A stretch of 64,000 nucleotides of DNA, from the NCBI GenBank assembly GCA_001898835.1, contig MKVM01000001.1:62001-126000 (forward strand), written 5' to 3'. Made by a program: the position numbers and the translations under genes. Below are positions 4,886-43,250 of the stretch, one piece after another; within the stretch, counting starts at the first letter, position 1; each line of letters starts with the position of its first letter. A model generated the notes under the pieces. It was not told the DNA's origin. It did no database searches and worked only from the letters and a program-made list of their open reading frames with translations. The DNA comes from Micrococcales bacterium 72-143 (lineage in GTDB: Bacteria; Actinomycetota; Actinomycetes; Actinomycetales; Microbacteriaceae).

Positions 4886-6193
4886 ATGGTGCGGAACACG
4901 GAGGGGGAGGACCCCCGGAGCACGGGCGCGCTCCCGGACGAGGGCGACGCCCTCCTCGCGTCGGCGCTTCCCGAGAGCCTCACCGTCTCGATCGAGCTGC
5001 CCGCGCCGCAGCACGAGCTTCCCGAGGACGAGCAGAAGGTGACCCTCGGGGAGGTGGTCGCCACGCCGAGCGCCGTCGGGCCGATGGTCGAGGGACCGGG
5101 CGGGGGGACCGTCACGATCGAGGTCGTCTCCGACATCGTGCACGTCGCCGACGAGGAGGCCGCCCCGACCTCCGAGAACACGGTCGTGCCGCTGCCCGCG
5201 GACGACGAGCTGTACTCGCGCCGCGACCGCAAGCGCGGCGTCTCCTCGACGCCGGAGCCGGCCGCCATGCTCACCGCCGACCGCCTGCTCGAGCCCAAGC
5301 GCAACAGGAACGCCCCCGAGGGCGGCTGGCCGGCCTTCGTGTACGCGAGCACCCTGCACCTCGTGAACCTCGGCGACTCGCCGAAGGTGCGCGAACGCAA
5401 GGCGCTCGACGCCCGCATCGGCAAGCGGCTGGAGGGCGGCACCCGCTTCGTGCCGATCCTCACCCGCAAGGGCGGCGTCGGCAAGACGACCGTCACGACG
5501 CTGCTCGGGATGGCGCTGGCCGACGTGCGCGAGGACCGCATCATCGCCGTCGACGCGAACCCCGACCGCGGCACCCTCTCCGAGCGCGTCGCCCGGCAGA
5601 CCCGGTCCACGGTGCGCGACATCGTCACCCACGCGGCCGCCATCAAGGACTTCAACGAGTTCTCGGCCCACGTGTCCCGCGACGAGACCCGCCTCGACGT
5701 GCTCGCATCGGACACCGACCCGCTGCTGTCGGAGGCGTTCGACGAGAACGACTACAACGTCGTCGCGGACCTCGTCTCCCGTTACTACTCGATCTGCCTC
5801 ACCGACTGCGGCACCGGCATCGTGCACTCCGTCATGCGGGCCACGCTGCAGCGCGCCGACGGCATCGTCGTCGTCTCCGGCGGCAGCGTCGACGAGGCGC
5901 GCCTCGCGTCCGAGACCCTCACCTGGCTCGAGGCGAACAACTACGGCGACCTCGTGCGGAACGCGGTCGTCGCGATCAACACCGCGACGCACGGCACGAA
6001 CCTCGTCAAGCTCGACGAGATCGACGCCCACTTCGCCTCCCGCGTGCGGTCCGTCGTGCGCATGCCGTACGACCCGGAGCTCGCCGCCGGCTCCGTCGTG
6101 CGGTGGAGCAAGCTCAGGCCCTTCACCCGGGCCTCCGCCCGCGAGCTCGCCGCGCTCGTCATGGACGGCCTCCCGACCACCCGGAACGCGTGA
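4886..6193 (+). CDS. MinD/ParA-like P-loop ATPase with about 180 aa disordered N-terminus
   Basis: TRKGGVGKTTVTTLLG Walker A, AVDANPDRGTLSER, TDCGTGI. Confidence 0.8.
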   Translation: MVRNTEGEDPRSTGALPDEGDALLASALPESLTVSIELPAPQHELPEDEQKVTLGEVVATPSAVGPMVEGPGGGTVTIEVVSDIVHVADEEAAPTSENTVVPLPADDELYSRRDRKRGVSSTPEPAAMLTADRLLEPKRNRNAPEGGWPAFVYASTLHLVNLGDSPKVRERKALDARIGKRLEGGTRFVPILTRKGGVGKTTVTTLLGMALADVREDRIIAVDANPDRGTLSERVARQTRSTVRDIVTHAAAIKDFNEFSAHVSRDETRLDVLASDTDPLLSEAFDENDYNVVADLVSRYYSICLTDCGTGIVHSVMRATLQRADGIVVVSGGSVDEARLASETLTWLEANNYGDLVRNAVVAINTATHGTNLVKLDEIDAHFASRVRSVVRMPYDPELAAGSVVRWSKLRPFTRASARELAALVMDGLPTTRNA

Positions 6194-6201
6194 CCCGCCC
6201 C

Positions 6202-6699
6202 ATGACCGAACGACAGATCCGCCTCTTCGGCGACCCCGTGCTCCGCTCGCGCACCGACCCCATCGCCGACCCCGGCGACCCGCGCGTGCGCGCCCTCGTC
6301 GAGGACCTCGTCGAGACCGTCGAGCTGCCCGGCCGCGCGGGTCTCGCCGCGACCCAGATCGGGGTCGGCCTGCGCGCCTTCAGCGTCAACATCGACGGCG
6401 ACATCTCCTACGTCATCAACCCCGTCCTCGAGGTGGCGGGGGAGCCCGAGCTCGTCGACGAGGGTTGCCTCTCGGTGCCCGGCTTCTACTTCCCGCGGAT
6501 GCGGCACCCCTGGGCGCGCGTGACGGGCGTCGACGTCGACGGGAACGAGGTCGTGCTCGAGGGCGAGGGGCTCATGGCGCAGGCGCTGCAGCACGAGACC
6601 GACCACCTCGACGGCAAGCTCTACATCGAGGGCCTCGAGCCGGAGACCAAGCGCGAGGCGATGCGCGCCATCCGCCGGGCCGACTGGTTCCAGGCCTAG
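6202..6699 (+). CDS. def: Peptide deformylase
   Basis: GLAATQIG, EGCLSVPG, QHETDHLDG motifs; ATG at 6202 preferred over the longer ORF. Confidence 0.95.
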   Translation: MTERQIRLFGDPVLRSRTDPIADPGDPRVRALVEDLVETVELPGRAGLAATQIGVGLRAFSVNIDGDISYVINPVLEVAGEPELVDEGCLSVPGFYFPRMRHPWARVTGVDVDGNEVVLEGEGLMAQALQHETDHLDGKLYIEGLEPETKREAMRAIRRADWFQA

Positions 6700-6717
6700 C
6701 CGCGACGTCGGCGGGCA

Positions 6718-6810
6718 CGGATCGTGCTTCCGGGACGCATGCCCCCGCGTGCCGCCTTCGGCGGCGCGCTCCCGCCAGTCCCGATGCCAGCGTCCCGGAA
6801 GCACGATCCG
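6718..6810 (+). repeat. Conserved-core / variable-arm palindromic element, copy 1 (21-bp perfect arms, 51-nt core)
   Basis: Arms cggatcgtgcttccgggacgc (6718-6738) and gcgtcccggaagcacgatccg (6790-6810) are exact reverse complements. Core is atgcccccgcgtgccgccttcggcggcgcgctcccgccagtcccgatgcca. Confidence 0.97.
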
Positions 6811-7006
6811 ACCCCGCCTCCTCGGGCAAGGCGGAACCTCAGCCAGCGCATCGAGTTGAAAGGGCAGAGGGCGCCGGACGCATCCGGCCCCTCCGCCTCC
6901 TCGCGACGCGCCGCGGGACTTGGCGGGGTCTCCACAGCGGACGGCGCGACCGCGCTCGTGCCGTTCGCGGAGCGACGTGCCGCGGATTACCGCGGCGCCA
7001 ACCAAC

Positions 7007-8830
7007 TCAGCGCAGGGAGATGCCCTCGGTGACCGGGTTGCCCGAGTAGAGCTCCTCGATGACGGGCGCGAAGTCCTTGACGATGACGTTGCGCTTGATG
7101 GACATCTTCGGGGTGAGGTGGCCGCCGTCCTCGGTGAACTCGATGTCGAGGATCTTGAACTTGCGGATCGACTCGGCCCGCGACACCTTCGCGTTGGCGG
7201 TGTCGATGGCCCGCTGCACCTCCGCGATCACCTTCGGGTTGCGGGCCGCCTCGGTGAGGCTCATGTCGCCGGCCTCTCCGTTGTTGTTGAGCCACACCGG
7301 CAGCATCTCGGGGTCGAGCGTGATGAGCGCCGAGATGAACGGCTTCTGGTCGCCCACGACGACGACCTGCCCGATGATCGGGTTCGCCCGGATCGGGTCC
7401 TCGAGGCCGGCCGGCGCCACGTTCTTGCCGCCCGCGGTGACGATGATCTCCTTCTTGCGGCCGGTGATGGTGAGGTAGCCCTCGTCGTCGAGGGACCCGA
7501 TGTCGCCCGTGTGGAACCAGTCGCCGCTGAACACCTCGGCGGTGGCCTCCGGCTTGTTCCAGTAGCCGGCGAACACGTCGACGCCCTTCACGAGCACCTC
7601 GCCGTCCTCGGCGATCTTGATGCCGACGCCGGGGATGGGCGCCCCCACCGTGCCGATCTTGAACTTGGCGGGCACGTTGACGGTCGCGGGCGCCGTCGTC
7701 TCCGTGAGCCCGTAGCCCTCGAGGATCTTCACGTCGAGGCTGCGGAAGAAGTGTCCGAGGCGCAGGCCGAGCGGCGCCGAGCCGGACACGGCGTAGCGCA
7801 CCCGGCCGCCCATCGCCTCCTTGAGCTTGCTGTAGACGAGCTTGTCGAAGAGGGCGAACTGGATGCGGAGGCCGAACGGCACCTTGCCCGCGTCGAGCGC
7901 CTTCGAGTGCGCGATGGCGACGTCGGCCGCCTTGTGGAAGATCTTCTCCTTGCCGCCGGCGGCCGCCTTCTGCTCGGCGGAGTTGTAGACCTTCTCGAAC
8001 ACGCGCGGCACGGCGAGGAGGAAGGTCGGCTTGAAGCTGCCGAGCGCCGGGAGCAGCTGCTTGGTGTCTGCCTGGTGGCCGACCTTGACGCCCGCGTGCA
8101 CCGACAGGATCGCGATGAAGCGCGCGAACACGTGTGCGGTCGTGATGAAGAGCAGCGTCGACGCGCCCCCCTCCAGCACCTCCGCCATGGCGACCGCGGC
8201 GTTGCGGGAGAGCTCGACGAAGTTGGAGTGGGTGAGGATGCAGCCCTTCGGGGTGCCGGTCGAGCCGGAGGTGTAGATGAGGGTCGCCAGGTCGGAGCCC
8301 TTGGCCCGGGTTCGGCGCTCCTCGACCTCCGCGTCGCTCACCTCCGCGCCGCCGGCGACGAGCTTGTCGAGGTCGCCGAGGTGCAGCTGCCAGGCCTTTC
8401 CGATCTGGGGGAGGTCGGCGCGCACCTCGTCGAAGCGGGCGAAGTGCTCCGCCGTCTCGACGATGATGGCGTTCGCACCCGAGTCGGTGAGCGTGTAGGC
8501 GATCTGGGAGGGGGCTGAGGTCTCGTAGATCGGAACGAGTACGGCGCCCGCGAACCAGGTCGCGAAGTCGATGAGCGTCCACTCGTAGCGGGTGCGGCAG
8601 ATGAAGCCGATCTTGTCGCCCGGCTGGACGCCGGCGGCGATGAGGCCCTTGGCGAGCGCCACCACCTGACGGTGGAACTCGGCGGTCGAGACGTCCTCCC
8701 AGCCGCCGTCGGCGGTGGGCAGGGCGAAGAGCGGCGCATCCGGGGTCTGGGCGACGCGCTCGACCAGCAGATCGGTGGCGTTGGCCTCCGGGTCGGCGGG
8801 TACGACGGCGGGGACGTAGATCTCGTTCAC
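7007..8830 (-). CDS. fadD: Long-chain fatty-acid--CoA ligase / AMP-binding protein
   Basis: YTSGSTGTPKGCILTH, EGYGLTETTAP, GWFHTGDIG-like motif; GTG start with AAGGAG RBS. Confidence 0.93.
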   Translation of the reverse strand: MNEIYVPAVVPADPEANATDLLVERVAQTPDAPLFALPTADGGWEDVSTAEFHRQVVALAKGLIAAGVQPGDKIGFICRTRYEWTLIDFATWFAGAVLVPIYETSAPSQIAYTLTDSGANAIIVETAEHFARFDEVRADLPQIGKAWQLHLGDLDKLVAGGAEVSDAEVEERRTRAKGSDLATLIYTSGSTGTPKGCILTHSNFVELSRNAAVAMAEVLEGGASTLLFITTAHVFARFIAILSVHAGVKVGHQADTKQLLPALGSFKPTFLLAVPRVFEKVYNSAEQKAAAGGKEKIFHKAADVAIAHSKALDAGKVPFGLRIQFALFDKLVYSKLKEAMGGRVRYAVSGSAPLGLRLGHFFRSLDVKILEGYGLTETTAPATVNVPAKFKIGTVGAPIPGVGIKIAEDGEVLVKGVDVFAGYWNKPEATAEVFSGDWFHTGDIGSLDDEGYLTITGRKKEIIVTAGGKNVAPAGLEDPIRANPIIGQVVVVGDQKPFISALITLDPEMLPVWLNNNGEAGDMSLTEAARNPKVIAEVQRAIDTANAKVSRAESIRKFKILDIEFTEDGGHLTPKMSIKRNVIVKDFAPVIEELYSGNPVTEGISLR

Positions 8831-20032: not shown

Positions 20033-20464
20033 ATGCTGCTCGGCACCTTCGTTCCCAAGCTCGACGAGAAGGGGCGCATCATCCTTCCGGCGAAGTTCAT
20101 GGGCGACTTCGCGAACGGCGTCGTGATGACCCGCGGCCAGGAGCGGTGCATCTACCTCTTCAGCCAGCGCGAGTTCGAGGAGCTGCACGAGCGCGCCCGG
20201 CAGGCGCCCGTCACCGGCAAGAAGGGCCGCGACTTCCTCCGCATGTTCCTGAGCGGCGCCGCCGAGGACATGCCCGACAAGCAGCACCGCGTCACGATCC
20301 CGCCGATGCTGCGCGAGTACGCGGGACTCGACCGCGAGCTGACCGTCATCGGCGCGGGCAACCGCGCCGAGATCTGGGACACCGCGGCCTGGAACGCCTA
20401 CTACGAGGCAACCGAGGCCGACTTCGCCGACACCGACGAGGAGGTGATCGCGGGACTGTTCTGA
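20033..20464 (+). CDS. mraZ: Transcriptional regulator MraZ
   Basis: [21 protein letters not shown], first gene of the dcw cluster. Confidence 0.95.
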
Positions 20465-20567
20465 ACCCGCGGATGCGACCCTCAGCCGCGCTCCCTGGCG
20501 CACCTTCCCCGGTGCCAGGTGGCGGCGGATGGGGATCGGATCCGGGGGCGCGGACCATCGCACGGCC

Positions 20568-39722: not shown

Positions 39723-42700
39723 GTGACGAGCAGCGATTCCTTCGTGCACCTGCACGTGCACAGCGAATACAGCATGCTCGACGGCGCCGCCCGGGTGTCC
39801 GACCTCATGAAGGAGGTCGCCGCGCAGGGGATGCCCGCGATCGCGGTGACCGACCACGGCAACAACTTCGGCGCCTTCGACTTCTGGTCGCAGGCCAACG
39901 CCAACGGTGTGAAGCCCATCATCGGCACCGAGGCGTACCTCACCCCGGGAACCCACCGCACCGACAAGACGCGCGTGCGCTGGGGTGACGGGGGAGAGGA
40001 CGACGTCTCCGGCTCCGGCGCCTACACGCACATGACCCTGTGGGCCGAGAACACGGCGGGCATGCACAACCTGTTCCGCCTGTCGAGCCTCGCCTCCATC
40101 GAGGGCTACTACTTCAAGCCCCGCATGGACCGCGAGCTGCTGCAGAACTACGCGACGGGCATCATCGCCACCACCGGCTGCCCGTCCGGCGAGGTGCAGA
40201 CCCGGCTGCGGCTCGGGCAGTACGAGGCGGCCCGCGATGCGGCGGCCGAGTTCCGCGACATCTTCGGCAAGGACAACTTCTTCGTCGAGCTCATGGACCA
40301 CGGCCTCGGCATCGAGCGTCGAGTGATGACCGACCTCATCCGCCTGTCGAAAGACCTCGGGCTGCCGCTCGTCGCCACCAACGACCTGCACTACACGCAC
40401 GCCCACGACTCGTCCGCGCACGAGATCCTGCTGTGCGTGCAGTCGGGGTCGACGCTCGCCGACCCCAAGCGCTTCAAGTTCGACGCGCAGGAGTTCTACC
40501 TGAAGACGCCCGCGCAGATGCGTCAGCTGTTCCGGGACCACCCCGACGCGTGCGACAACACACTCCTCATCGCCGAGCGCTGCGACGTCGCGTTCAACAC
40601 GAGCGCCAACTACATGCCGCGCTATCCGGTGCCCGAGGGCGAGACCGAGGAGACCTGGTTCATCAAGGAGGTCGAGCGGGGACTGCACGAGCGCTACCCG
40701 TCCGGCATCCCCGACGAGGTGCGCAAGCAGGCCGACTACGAGACCGGCGTCATCACCCAGATGGGCTTCCCCGGCTACTTCCTCGTCGTCGCCGACTTCA
40801 TCAACTGGTCGAAGGACCACGGCATCCGCGTGGGACCGGGGCGCGGTTCGGGCGCCGGCTCGATGGCCGCCTACGCCATGAAGATCACCGACCTCGACCC
40901 GCTGCAGCACGGGCTCATCTTCGAGCGCTTCCTCAACCCCGACCGCGTCTCGATGCCCGACTTCGACGTCGACTTCGACGAGCGTCGGCGGGGCGAGGTC
41001 ATCAGGTACGTGACCGAGAAGTACGGCGAGGAGCGCGTCGCGCAGATCGTCACCTACGGCACCATCAAGGCCAAGCAGGCGCTCAAGGACTCCGGCCGGG
41101 TGCTCGGCTTCCCGTTCTCCATGGGGGAGAAGCTCACCAAGGCGATGCCGCCTGCCATCATGGGCAAGGACATCCCGCTCACCGGCATCGTCGACCCGGC
41201 GCACGAGCGCTACAAGGAGGCCGGAGACTTCCGCGCCATCCTCGACACCGACGCGGATGCGCGCACCGTCTTCGAGACGGCGCGCGGCCTCGAGGGGCTC
41301 AAGCGCCAGTGGGGCGTGCACGCCGCGGGTGTCATCATGTCGAGCGAGCCGCTCATCGACATCATCCCCATCATGCGCCGTGAGCAGGACGGCCAGATCG
41401 TCACCCAGTTCGACTACCCGGCCGCCGAGGCGCTCGGCCTCATCAAGATGGACTTCCTGGGCCTCAGGAACCTCACGATCATCGACGACGCCCTCGACAA
41501 CATCGAGGCGAACCGCGGCTTCCGCCCCGGGCTCGAGGAGCTGGCGCTCGACGACCCCGCCGCCTACGAGCTGCTCGGCCGCGGCGACACGCTCGGCGTC
41601 TTCCAGCTCGACGGCGGGCCCATGCGCTCGCTGCTGCGCCTCATGCGACCGGACAACTTCGAGGACATCTCGGCCGTCATCGCGCTGTACCGCCCGGGTC
41701 CGATGGGCGCCAACTCGCACACCAACTACGCCCTGCGCAAGAACGGCCAGCAGGCGATCGTGCCCATCCATCCGGAGCTCGAGGAGCCGCTCAGAGACAT
41801 CCTCGACACGAGCTACGGCCTCATCATCTACCAGGAGCAGGTGATGGCGATCGCGCAGCGGGTGGCGGGCTTCTCGCTCGGCCAGGCCGACATCCTGCGC
41901 CGTGCGATGGGCAAGAAGAAGAAGTCCGAGCTCGACAAGCAGTACGAGGGCTTCTCGAACGGCATGAAGGAGCGCGGGTTCTCCGACACGGCGATCAAGA
42001 CGCTGTGGGACATCCTGCTGCCGTTCTCCGACTACGCCTTCAACAAGGCGCACTCCGCCGCCTACGGCGTGCTCAGCTACTGGACCGCCTACCTCAAGGC
42101 GCACTACCCGGCCGAGTACATGGCGGCGCTCCTCACGAGCGTCGGCGACGCGCGCGACAAGCTCGCCATGTACCTCAACGAGTGCCGCCGCATGGGCATC
42201 CAGGTGCTGCCCCCGGACGTCAACGAGTCGATCGGCTACTTCGCGGCCGTCGGCGAGGACATCCGCTTCGGCCTCGGCGCGGTGCGCAACGTCGGCTTCG
42301 GCGTCGTCGACCAGATCCGCGCTGCCCGCGAGGAGAAGGGCGCCTTCACCTCCTTCCACGACTTCCTGCGCAAGGTGCCGCTCACCGCGCTCAACAAGCG
42401 CACCATCGAGTCGCTCATCAAGGCCGGCGCCTTCGACTCGCTCGGCACGACGCGGCGCGCCCTCATCGAGATCCATGAGGAGTCCGTCGAGTCGGCCGTC
42501 TCGGTGAAGCGCAACGAGGCCAACGGCCAGGTCGGATTCGACTTCGACTCGCTCTGGGACGAGCCCGCCGCCGTCGACCACGTGCCCGAGCGCCCCGAGT
42601 GGTCCAAGAAGGACAAGCTCGCCTTCGAACGCGAGATGCTCGGCCTCTACGTCTCCGAGCATCCGCTCGACGGGCTCGAGGTGCTGCTCGCCAAGCACGC

Positions 42701-43235
42701 CTCGATCGGCATCGGCGAACTGCTCGCCTCGGAGTCCATCCAGGACGGCGAGACCGTCACCGTCGCCGGCCTCCTCACGAGCGTGCAGCATCGCACGGCG
42801 CGACAGTCGGGCAACCCCTACGGCGTCGTCACCGTCGAGGACTTCGGCGGCGAGGTGAACGTCATGTTCCTCGGCAAGACCTACCAGGAGTTCGCGCCCG
42901 GCCTGCAGAGCGACACCATCGCCGTCATCCGGGCCCGCGTGAGCCAGCGCGACGACGGTATCGGCCTGCACGCGCAGAGCATGTTCCAGCCCGACACCGG
43001 CCAGAGCCTCGGCTCGGGGCCGCTCGTCATCCAGGTGCCGGAGCACCGGGCGACGACCGAGGTGGTGTCGGCGCTCAGCGACGTGCTCATCCGCCACCAG
43101 GGCGACAACGAGGTGCGGCTGCGGCTGGTGCGCGGTGACTCCGCGCGGCTCTTCGAGATCCCGTACCCGGTGTCGGTCACCGCCGACCTCTACGGCGAGC
43201 TCAAGAGCCTCCTCGGCCCCAACTGCGTCGTGTGA
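39723..43235 (+). CDS. dnaE: DNA polymerase III alpha subunit
   Basis: VHLHVHSEYSMLDGAA (PHP), GPGRGSGAGS, MPDFDVDFDERRR; GTG start. Confidence 0.97.
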   Translation: MTSSDSFVHLHVHSEYSMLDGAARVSDLMKEVAAQGMPAIAVTDHGNNFGAFDFWSQANANGVKPIIGTEAYLTPGTHRTDKTRVRWGDGGEDDVSGSGAYTHMTLWAENTAGMHNLFRLSSLASIEGYYFKPRMDRELLQNYATGIIATTGCPSGEVQTRLRLGQYEAARDAAAEFRDIFGKDNFFVELMDHGLGIERRVMTDLIRLSKDLGLPLVATNDLHYTHAHDSSAHEILLCVQSGSTLADPKRFKFDAQEFYLKTPAQMRQLFRDHPDACDNTLLIAERCDVAFNTSANYMPRYPVPEGETEETWFIKEVERGLHERYPSGIPDEVRKQADYETGVITQMGFPGYFLVVADFINWSKDHGIRVGPGRGSGAGSMAAYAMKITDLDPLQHGLIFERFLNPDRVSMPDFDVDFDERRRGEVIRYVTEKYGEERVAQIVTYGTIKAKQALKDSGRVLGFPFSMGEKLTKAMPPAIMGKDIPLTGIVDPAHERYKEAGDFRAILDTDADARTVFETARGLEGLKRQWGVHAAGVIMSSEPLIDIIPIMRREQDGQIVTQFDYPAAEALGLIKMDFLGLRNLTIIDDALDNIEANRGFRPGLEELALDDPAAYELLGRGDTLGVFQLDGGPMRSLLRLMRPDNFEDISAVIALYRPGPMGANSHTNYALRKNGQQAIVPIHPELEEPLRDILDTSYGLIIYQEQVMAIAQRVAGFSLGQADILRRAMGKKKKSELDKQYEGFSNGMKERGFSDTAIKTLWDILLPFSDYAFNKAHSAAYGVLSYWTAYLKAHYPAEYMAALLTSVGDARDKLAMYLNECRRMGIQVLPPDVNESIGYFAAVGEDIRFGLGAVRNVGFGVVDQIRAAREEKGAFTSFHDFLRKVPLTALNKRTIESLIKAGAFDSLGTTRRALIEIHEESVESAVSVKRNEANGQVGFDFDSLWDEPAAVDHVPERPEWSKKDKLAFEREMLGLYVSEHPLDGLEVLLAKHASIGIGELLASESIQDGETVTVAGLLTSVQHRTARQSGNPYGVVTVEDFGGEVNVMFLGKTYQEFAPGLQSDTIAVIRARVSQRDDGIGLHAQSMFQPDTGQSLGSGPLVIQVPEHRATTEVVSALSDVLIRHQGDNEVRLRLVRGDSARLFEIPYPVSVTADLYGELKSLLGPNCVV

Positions 43236-43250
43236 TCACCGACGCGGGAC

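Follow-up and report, generated by a model that had tools for sequence, protein, structure and literature searches.

Three copies of the element and their neighbouring genes

The window, meaning the whole 64,000-nucleotide stretch of DNA that was analysed, holds exactly three copies of a palindromic element as located by the R2 covariance model, each between two convergent genes. Gene context was taken from our own codon-usage gene finder, which was checked against the window and whose calls are approximate and uncurated. The copies and their neighbours are as follows.

6190..6699, plus strand: peptide deformylase (def), gene A of copy 1 (Pfam PF01327)
6710..6818, folding strand minus: copy 1, with 29-bp arms at 6710-6738 and 6790-6818 and core at 6739-6789
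6813-6715, minus strand: R2 model match of copy 1, 91.9 bits
6769..6789, minus strand: conserved G-rich loop of copy 1 from the alignment of all copies, reading UGGCAUCGGGACUGGCGGGAG on the minus strand
7007..8830, minus strand: AMP-binding enzyme, gene B of copy 1, convergent (Pfam PF00501)
39723..43235, plus strand: DNA polymerase III alpha (dnaE), gene A of copy 2 (Pfam PF07733)
43248..43357, folding strand minus: copy 2, with arms at 43248-43276 and 43329-43357 and core at 43277-43328
43352-43253, minus strand: R2 model match of copy 2, 99.6 bits
43308..43328, minus strand: conserved G-rich loop of copy 2 from the same alignment
43492..44016, minus strand: flavin reductase-like protein, gene B of copy 2, convergent (Pfam PF01613)
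45936..46958, plus strand: dihydroorotate dehydrogenase (pyrD), gene B of copy 3, convergent (Pfam PF01180)
47056..47165, folding strand plus: copy 3, with arms at 47137-47165 and 47056-47084 and core at 47085-47136
47061-47160, plus strand: R2 model match of copy 3, 98.7 bits
47085..47105, plus strand: conserved G-rich loop of copy 3 from the same alignment
47177..47749, minus strand: DUF3043 protein, gene A of copy 3 (Pfam PF11241)

The element begins 10 nt past the def stop (6699) in copy 1, 12 nt past the dnaE stop (43235) in copy 2 and 11 nt past the stop of the minus-strand DUF3043 gene (end 47177) in copy 3. A preliminary description had placed the near-identical cores at 6739-6789 (+), 43277-43328 (+) and 47085-47136 (-), and these positions were correct when re-located in the sequence. 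It had also called the element three-copy; all three copies exist but they are 3 of the 11 in the genome, as counted by a 93-nt whole-genome search and confirmed with the covariance model. An Rfam search of the whole window at the gathering score left the element unmatched and returned only an mraW RNA (RF01746) elsewhere, at 20460-20558 on the plus strand, while a search of the element itself up to an E of 5 gave sub-threshold chance matches only.

Covariation of the stem and the strand that folds

Realignment of the inner 21 nt of the arms of copies 1 and 2 reproduced the six differences described before, all of them compensated on the opposite arm. The arms pair as claimed, while the stems proved longer than described, at 29 bp, most copies having 0-2 internal mismatches. 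Among the 11 copies of this genome, 95.2% of stem cells were paired and 19 of 32 pairs were altered on both sides. None of 500 shuffles reached this degree of pairing, which fell to 31-43% when the partner was slid by 1-3 columns. In 23 divergent copies, from which a second covariance model was built for the wider searches, two-sided changes occurred in 29 of 31 pairs including all 24 modelled outer-stem pairs. The shuffle, slide and divergent-copy tests agree with the original proposal that the conserved loop and covarying stem mark a structure under selection.

Seventy-three genus copies aligned outward from the loop gave a 29-bp stem with a sharp end, beyond which GAA faces GAA in a symmetric internal loop, followed by two further pairs. 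Stem length was ~20-38 bp in other groups and the whole element spans ~110-165 bp. Stem sequences were specific to each locus in the genus (71 of 73 distinct by 20 nt), and the weak consensus among these otherwise distinct sequences indicates that the stems are homologous. On the folding strand the genus loop consists of UGGCAUCGGGNCUGGCGGGAGC and GCGGGGGCAU, in that order, separated by an apical hairpin that varies in sequence and length. In other families it reads UGG..UGGGNCUGGCGGGAGC ... GCGGAUGG and the asymmetric G-rich internal loop is conserved. The apical hairpin is usual but absent from several copies in G581, a genome of another family. A second palindromic repeat, of the GGTGGTCGAGGAGCGCCG...CGACGCGTCTCGAGACCA and GGTTGAGTGCGGCGCGC...GCGTATCGAAACC types, often adjoins the element in the genus; it was seen at L130, L306, L316 and in other intergenic flanks, on the folding-strand 5' side of many copies.

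The strand that folds was examined by counting, on each strand, the stem mismatches able to be G-U wobbles. Forty-eight were found on the folding strand versus 7 on the opposite strand in 74 genus copies, and 71 copies belonging to other genera and families gave 58 versus 4. The combined 106 versus 11 is made up of counts that are not fully independent, as copies share descent. The bias was present in all four gene arrangements and tracked the element, not gene direction, while a small control of 24 ordinary long hairpins at the same loci gave 6 versus 5. Since the G-U excess lies on one strand, the fold of a single strand, either RNA or single-stranded DNA, is the most likely target of selection, and by this G-U/A-C asymmetry that strand is not the one on which the element was first written. 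The preference also disfavours the double-stranded cruciform that had been put forward as an option, because a cruciform needs both strands and would prefer neither.

If the folding strand were transcribed into a small structured RNA or an antisense RNA acting in trans, this would account for the G-U tolerance and for the purine-rich loops of that strand (the GAA/GAA base motif and the G-rich loop). It would also suit a paired change read inside the core, where GGCAU with GCGGGGG is exchanged for GGCAC with GCGAGGG (U+G or C+A) in 12 copies; by reading, a second core pair changed from C-G to U-A in three copies. However, no promoter was conserved or enriched upstream of the element on the folding strand (TANNNT occurred 3 times in this gap and 15 times on the opposite strand), the element is multi-copy with turnover, and its tandem gene contexts would require antisense transcription. 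We judge such an RNA to be quite improbable, and the lack of a local promoter on the folding strand favours DNA over RNA.

Distribution, gene context and turnover

The search of the genome and its relatives with the core and covariance model, suggested at the outset, recovered the 11 own copies and 74 in the genus, where all nine genomes carried the element at 1-17 copies each. With the second model it was found within the family in at least 29 of 400 genomes and at least 10 of 85 genera. Of 396 genomes across the order, at least 15 had it, four further families among them. All of these are lower bounds, as only ten candidates per genome were scored. Matches in a class-wide sample were confined to the own family, and the genomes searched gave none beyond the order. 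The element family is therefore larger than first described, extending from 11 copies in this genome through the whole genus and ten genera of the family to four more families of the same order among the genomes searched. Three isolated copies lacking covariation in relatives had been named as the outcome that would count against a structure; instead the 74 genus copies and many beyond the genus covary.

Phage and plasmid records returned short chance matches only, the core pattern matched viral contigs at five places inside other sequence, all without stems, and no credible element was present at the pyrD loci of 60 relatives. Draft contigs tend to end at or near copies (L140, L141, L142; genome G005), so draft genomes probably undercount the element family.

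Seventy of 85 copies immediately followed the stop codon of a gene encoded opposite to the folding strand, which makes the folding strand antisense to the adjoining gene. For copies after a same-direction gene the median distance from stop codon to stem was ~15 nt, and the other neighbour was farther. Convergent genes flanked 56 of 85 copies versus ~22% of neighbouring gene pairs. Among the 65 copies of other genera for which both neighbouring genes were called, 46 showed the same polarity (median ~40 nt), and tandem gene context was as frequent there as convergent. Facing pairs of copies 50-360 bp apart, one per convergent gene, were observed at G000 C3:206720/206923, G004 C7:317625/317779 and C16:166238/166387, G006 C1:935220/935418 and G008 C1:943140/943501, and in genomes G034, G116, G265, G333 and G359.

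Because copies keep to the stop codon of one gene and their loop is deeply conserved, a cis-acting function at gene 3' ends is a serious rival explanation, although on balance an unlikely one. Such an element might be a terminator, an mRNA stabiliser or an insulator against antisense transcription, serving the upstream gene through the strand first described or blocking the transcripts of the convergent gene through the folding strand. The positional figures speak for it, as do convergent gene pairs that can bear one copy each, ordinary long hairpins that often occupy the same place where the element is absent, and a loop strongly conserved across families. Yet neither flank of the stem had a run of T-rich columns in the 73-copy profile, and the U-tract of the intrinsic terminator that had been offered as an option is thus absent from both strands. 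The conserved fold is antisense to the preceding gene, tandem contexts have no promoter reading that strand, only ~10 genes per genome carry the element and sister-species orthologues are without it.

Eight own loci were read at matching gene ends in other genomes and the def locus was read separately. The element was present or absent as a block at the compared loci, and sites without it could have a short intergenic gap or an ordinary long hairpin. Species sharing it at one locus had stems that differed in sequence and still paired, and in genus g35 the orthologous copies L369 and L373 of two close genomes differed by a C-G pair turned to G-C on both arms (by reading). Partial relics kept one half of the element (L282) or the outer arms alone (L303). 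At L315 (G001) the stem is complementary and ~70 nt is inserted in the loop or core, and at L279 (G004, the end of the 174-aa gene homologue) one half is duplicated and inverted, an arrangement that looks like the product of a template switch. Neither a target-site duplication nor an exact empty site was readable.

In genome G352, three copies are ~96% identical across ~146 bp, stems included, and their outer flanks are unrelated, which shows that the whole unit disperses there and directly supports the earlier suggestion of a mini mobile element. Stems are also nearly the same at several loci of genus g35. The own genus held no near-identical stems between loci and no two copies per genome that share stems; on these comparisons recent movement is shown in another genus only, not in the own genus. 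No mobility genes were found among the neighbours of the three G352 copies. A small inverted repeat (CTTGACAGTA...TACTGTCAAG) lies in the upstream flanks L333, L356 and L357 of G352, near the near-identical copies. The idea that cores had inserted themselves into the loops of ordinary terminators was rejected, at least in its simple version, as the stems have their own consensus and travel with the loop in G352 and genus g35.

The apical hairpin behaved differently from the stem. Its similarity was 0.62 between loci within a genome, 0.35 at the same locus across genomes and 0.40 between unrelated copies, a within-genome excess reached by none of 1000 permutations, whereas stem similarity in the same three comparisons was 0.62, 0.64 and 0.57. 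Judged from these alignments, the homogenisation of the hairpin would mean gene conversion of the loop, a loop copied apart from its stem, or the recent replacement of copies at the same loci.

Relation to known systems and interpretation

The best explanation at present, to which we give a probability of about 0.5, is that these structured elements of one actinobacterial order are a non-autonomous, dispersed family recognised as a folded single strand. This reading draws on the multiple copies, turnover, dispersal, strand-specific fold and lack of a promoter, while the tie to the stop codon (70 of 85 copies) could equally mean a function in cis. A putative trans-acting factor would bind the folded strand, as single-stranded DNA or less likely RNA, via the G-rich loop. 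This binder could be a nuclease, a recombinase or some other factor of the host, and would place the unit close to the 3' ends of genes by copying or inserting it. Selection on the fold would keep the stem paired while its sequence drifts, and template switching between the arms during replication probably helps to keep that pairing. In a narrower and rather doubtful form of the mechanism, which would make these a new class of mobile element, a host or other enzyme that recognises one folded strand by its G-rich loop would spread the loop between loci, so that the copied unit is often the loop while the stem of each locus stays its own, drifting freely yet perfectly paired.

Template switching has been described as a cause of compensated stem changes (PMC8794818) and may contribute to the compensated stems here. 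That the elements are altogether a functionless mutational by-product, palindromes that template switching during replication makes and keeps perfect, agrees with the likeness of L279 to such a product and with the ability of the process to create or maintain hairpins and compensated changes (PMC8794818). It is nevertheless very improbable, since it leaves the loop conservation across families, the strand-specific G-U excess and the location unexplained.

The preliminary description had recognised no described family, and comparison with known systems bears this out. Like REP/REPIN-RAYT systems, the elements are short intergenic palindromes at gene 3' ends with covarying stems and specificity for one DNA strand. 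They differ in that the Y1 transposase (PF01797) was found in none of the nine genus genomes while control genomes were positive, in their length of 110-165 bp, in their large conserved loop, and in a stem foot of GCGAAG in the 73-copy profile where the GTAG/CGTC foot tag of the 20-40 nt REP/REPIN palindrome is absent. Integron attC sites are likewise recognised as a folded single (bottom) strand just past a stop codon and have divergent stems. However, attC conserves the stem base GTTRRRY/RYYYAAC, while in the column profile our element has GCGAAGCGG/CCGCGAAGC at the base and its conserved part at the apex, and the neighbours are housekeeping genes (such as def and dnaE) and not cassettes. 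The associated reverse transcriptase of retrons, group II introns and DGR RNAs (PF00078) was present in one of nine genus genomes only, and the stem-loop with following U-tract of intrinsic terminators was lacking in the column profile. The sole reverse transcriptase of the genus, L261 (G003:C1:2135634-2136227), lies in a 996-aa open frame, and its presence does not follow element copy number.

ERIC/IRU, bcr1 and NEMIS/Correia are imperfect intergenic dispersed palindromes of ~100-160 bp whose mobilisation is borrowed or obscure, and which keep their stem sequence between copies. By contrast, the stem sequence here is almost free and the pairing alone is kept. As in MITEs, the three 146-bp G352 copies form a discrete dispersed non-coding unit; the arms, taken as terminal repeats, differ between copies in this genus and are shared in genus g35 and G352.

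No description of such an element in this order was found in the open-access literature. The nearest published description found was MRSC-65-2, a mobile or repeat sequence candidate proposed as a selfish element possibly acting as DNA (PMC11109978). It too has a single long stem, strong covariation and multiple copies per genome, but it features UYCCGG repeats and occurs in dozens of copies in diverse phyla (PMC11109978), while our element has a conserved asymmetric G-rich loop and 1-17 copies within one order, a separation made by description only. TTCCG recurs in the element stems and a distant relation to MRSC-65-2 is possible.

The element family is a previously unlabelled one that recurs just past gene ends in many related bacteria. 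It is an order-wide structured element missing from Rfam, in well-sampled bacteria. The stem covariation is very clear, the polarity between strands reveals which strand folds, and a homogenised loop beside a drifting stem is an unusual split. Two questions are made testable by this split: whether long perfect stems are kept by selection or by template switching, and what mobilises small palindromes without a REP-type transposase.
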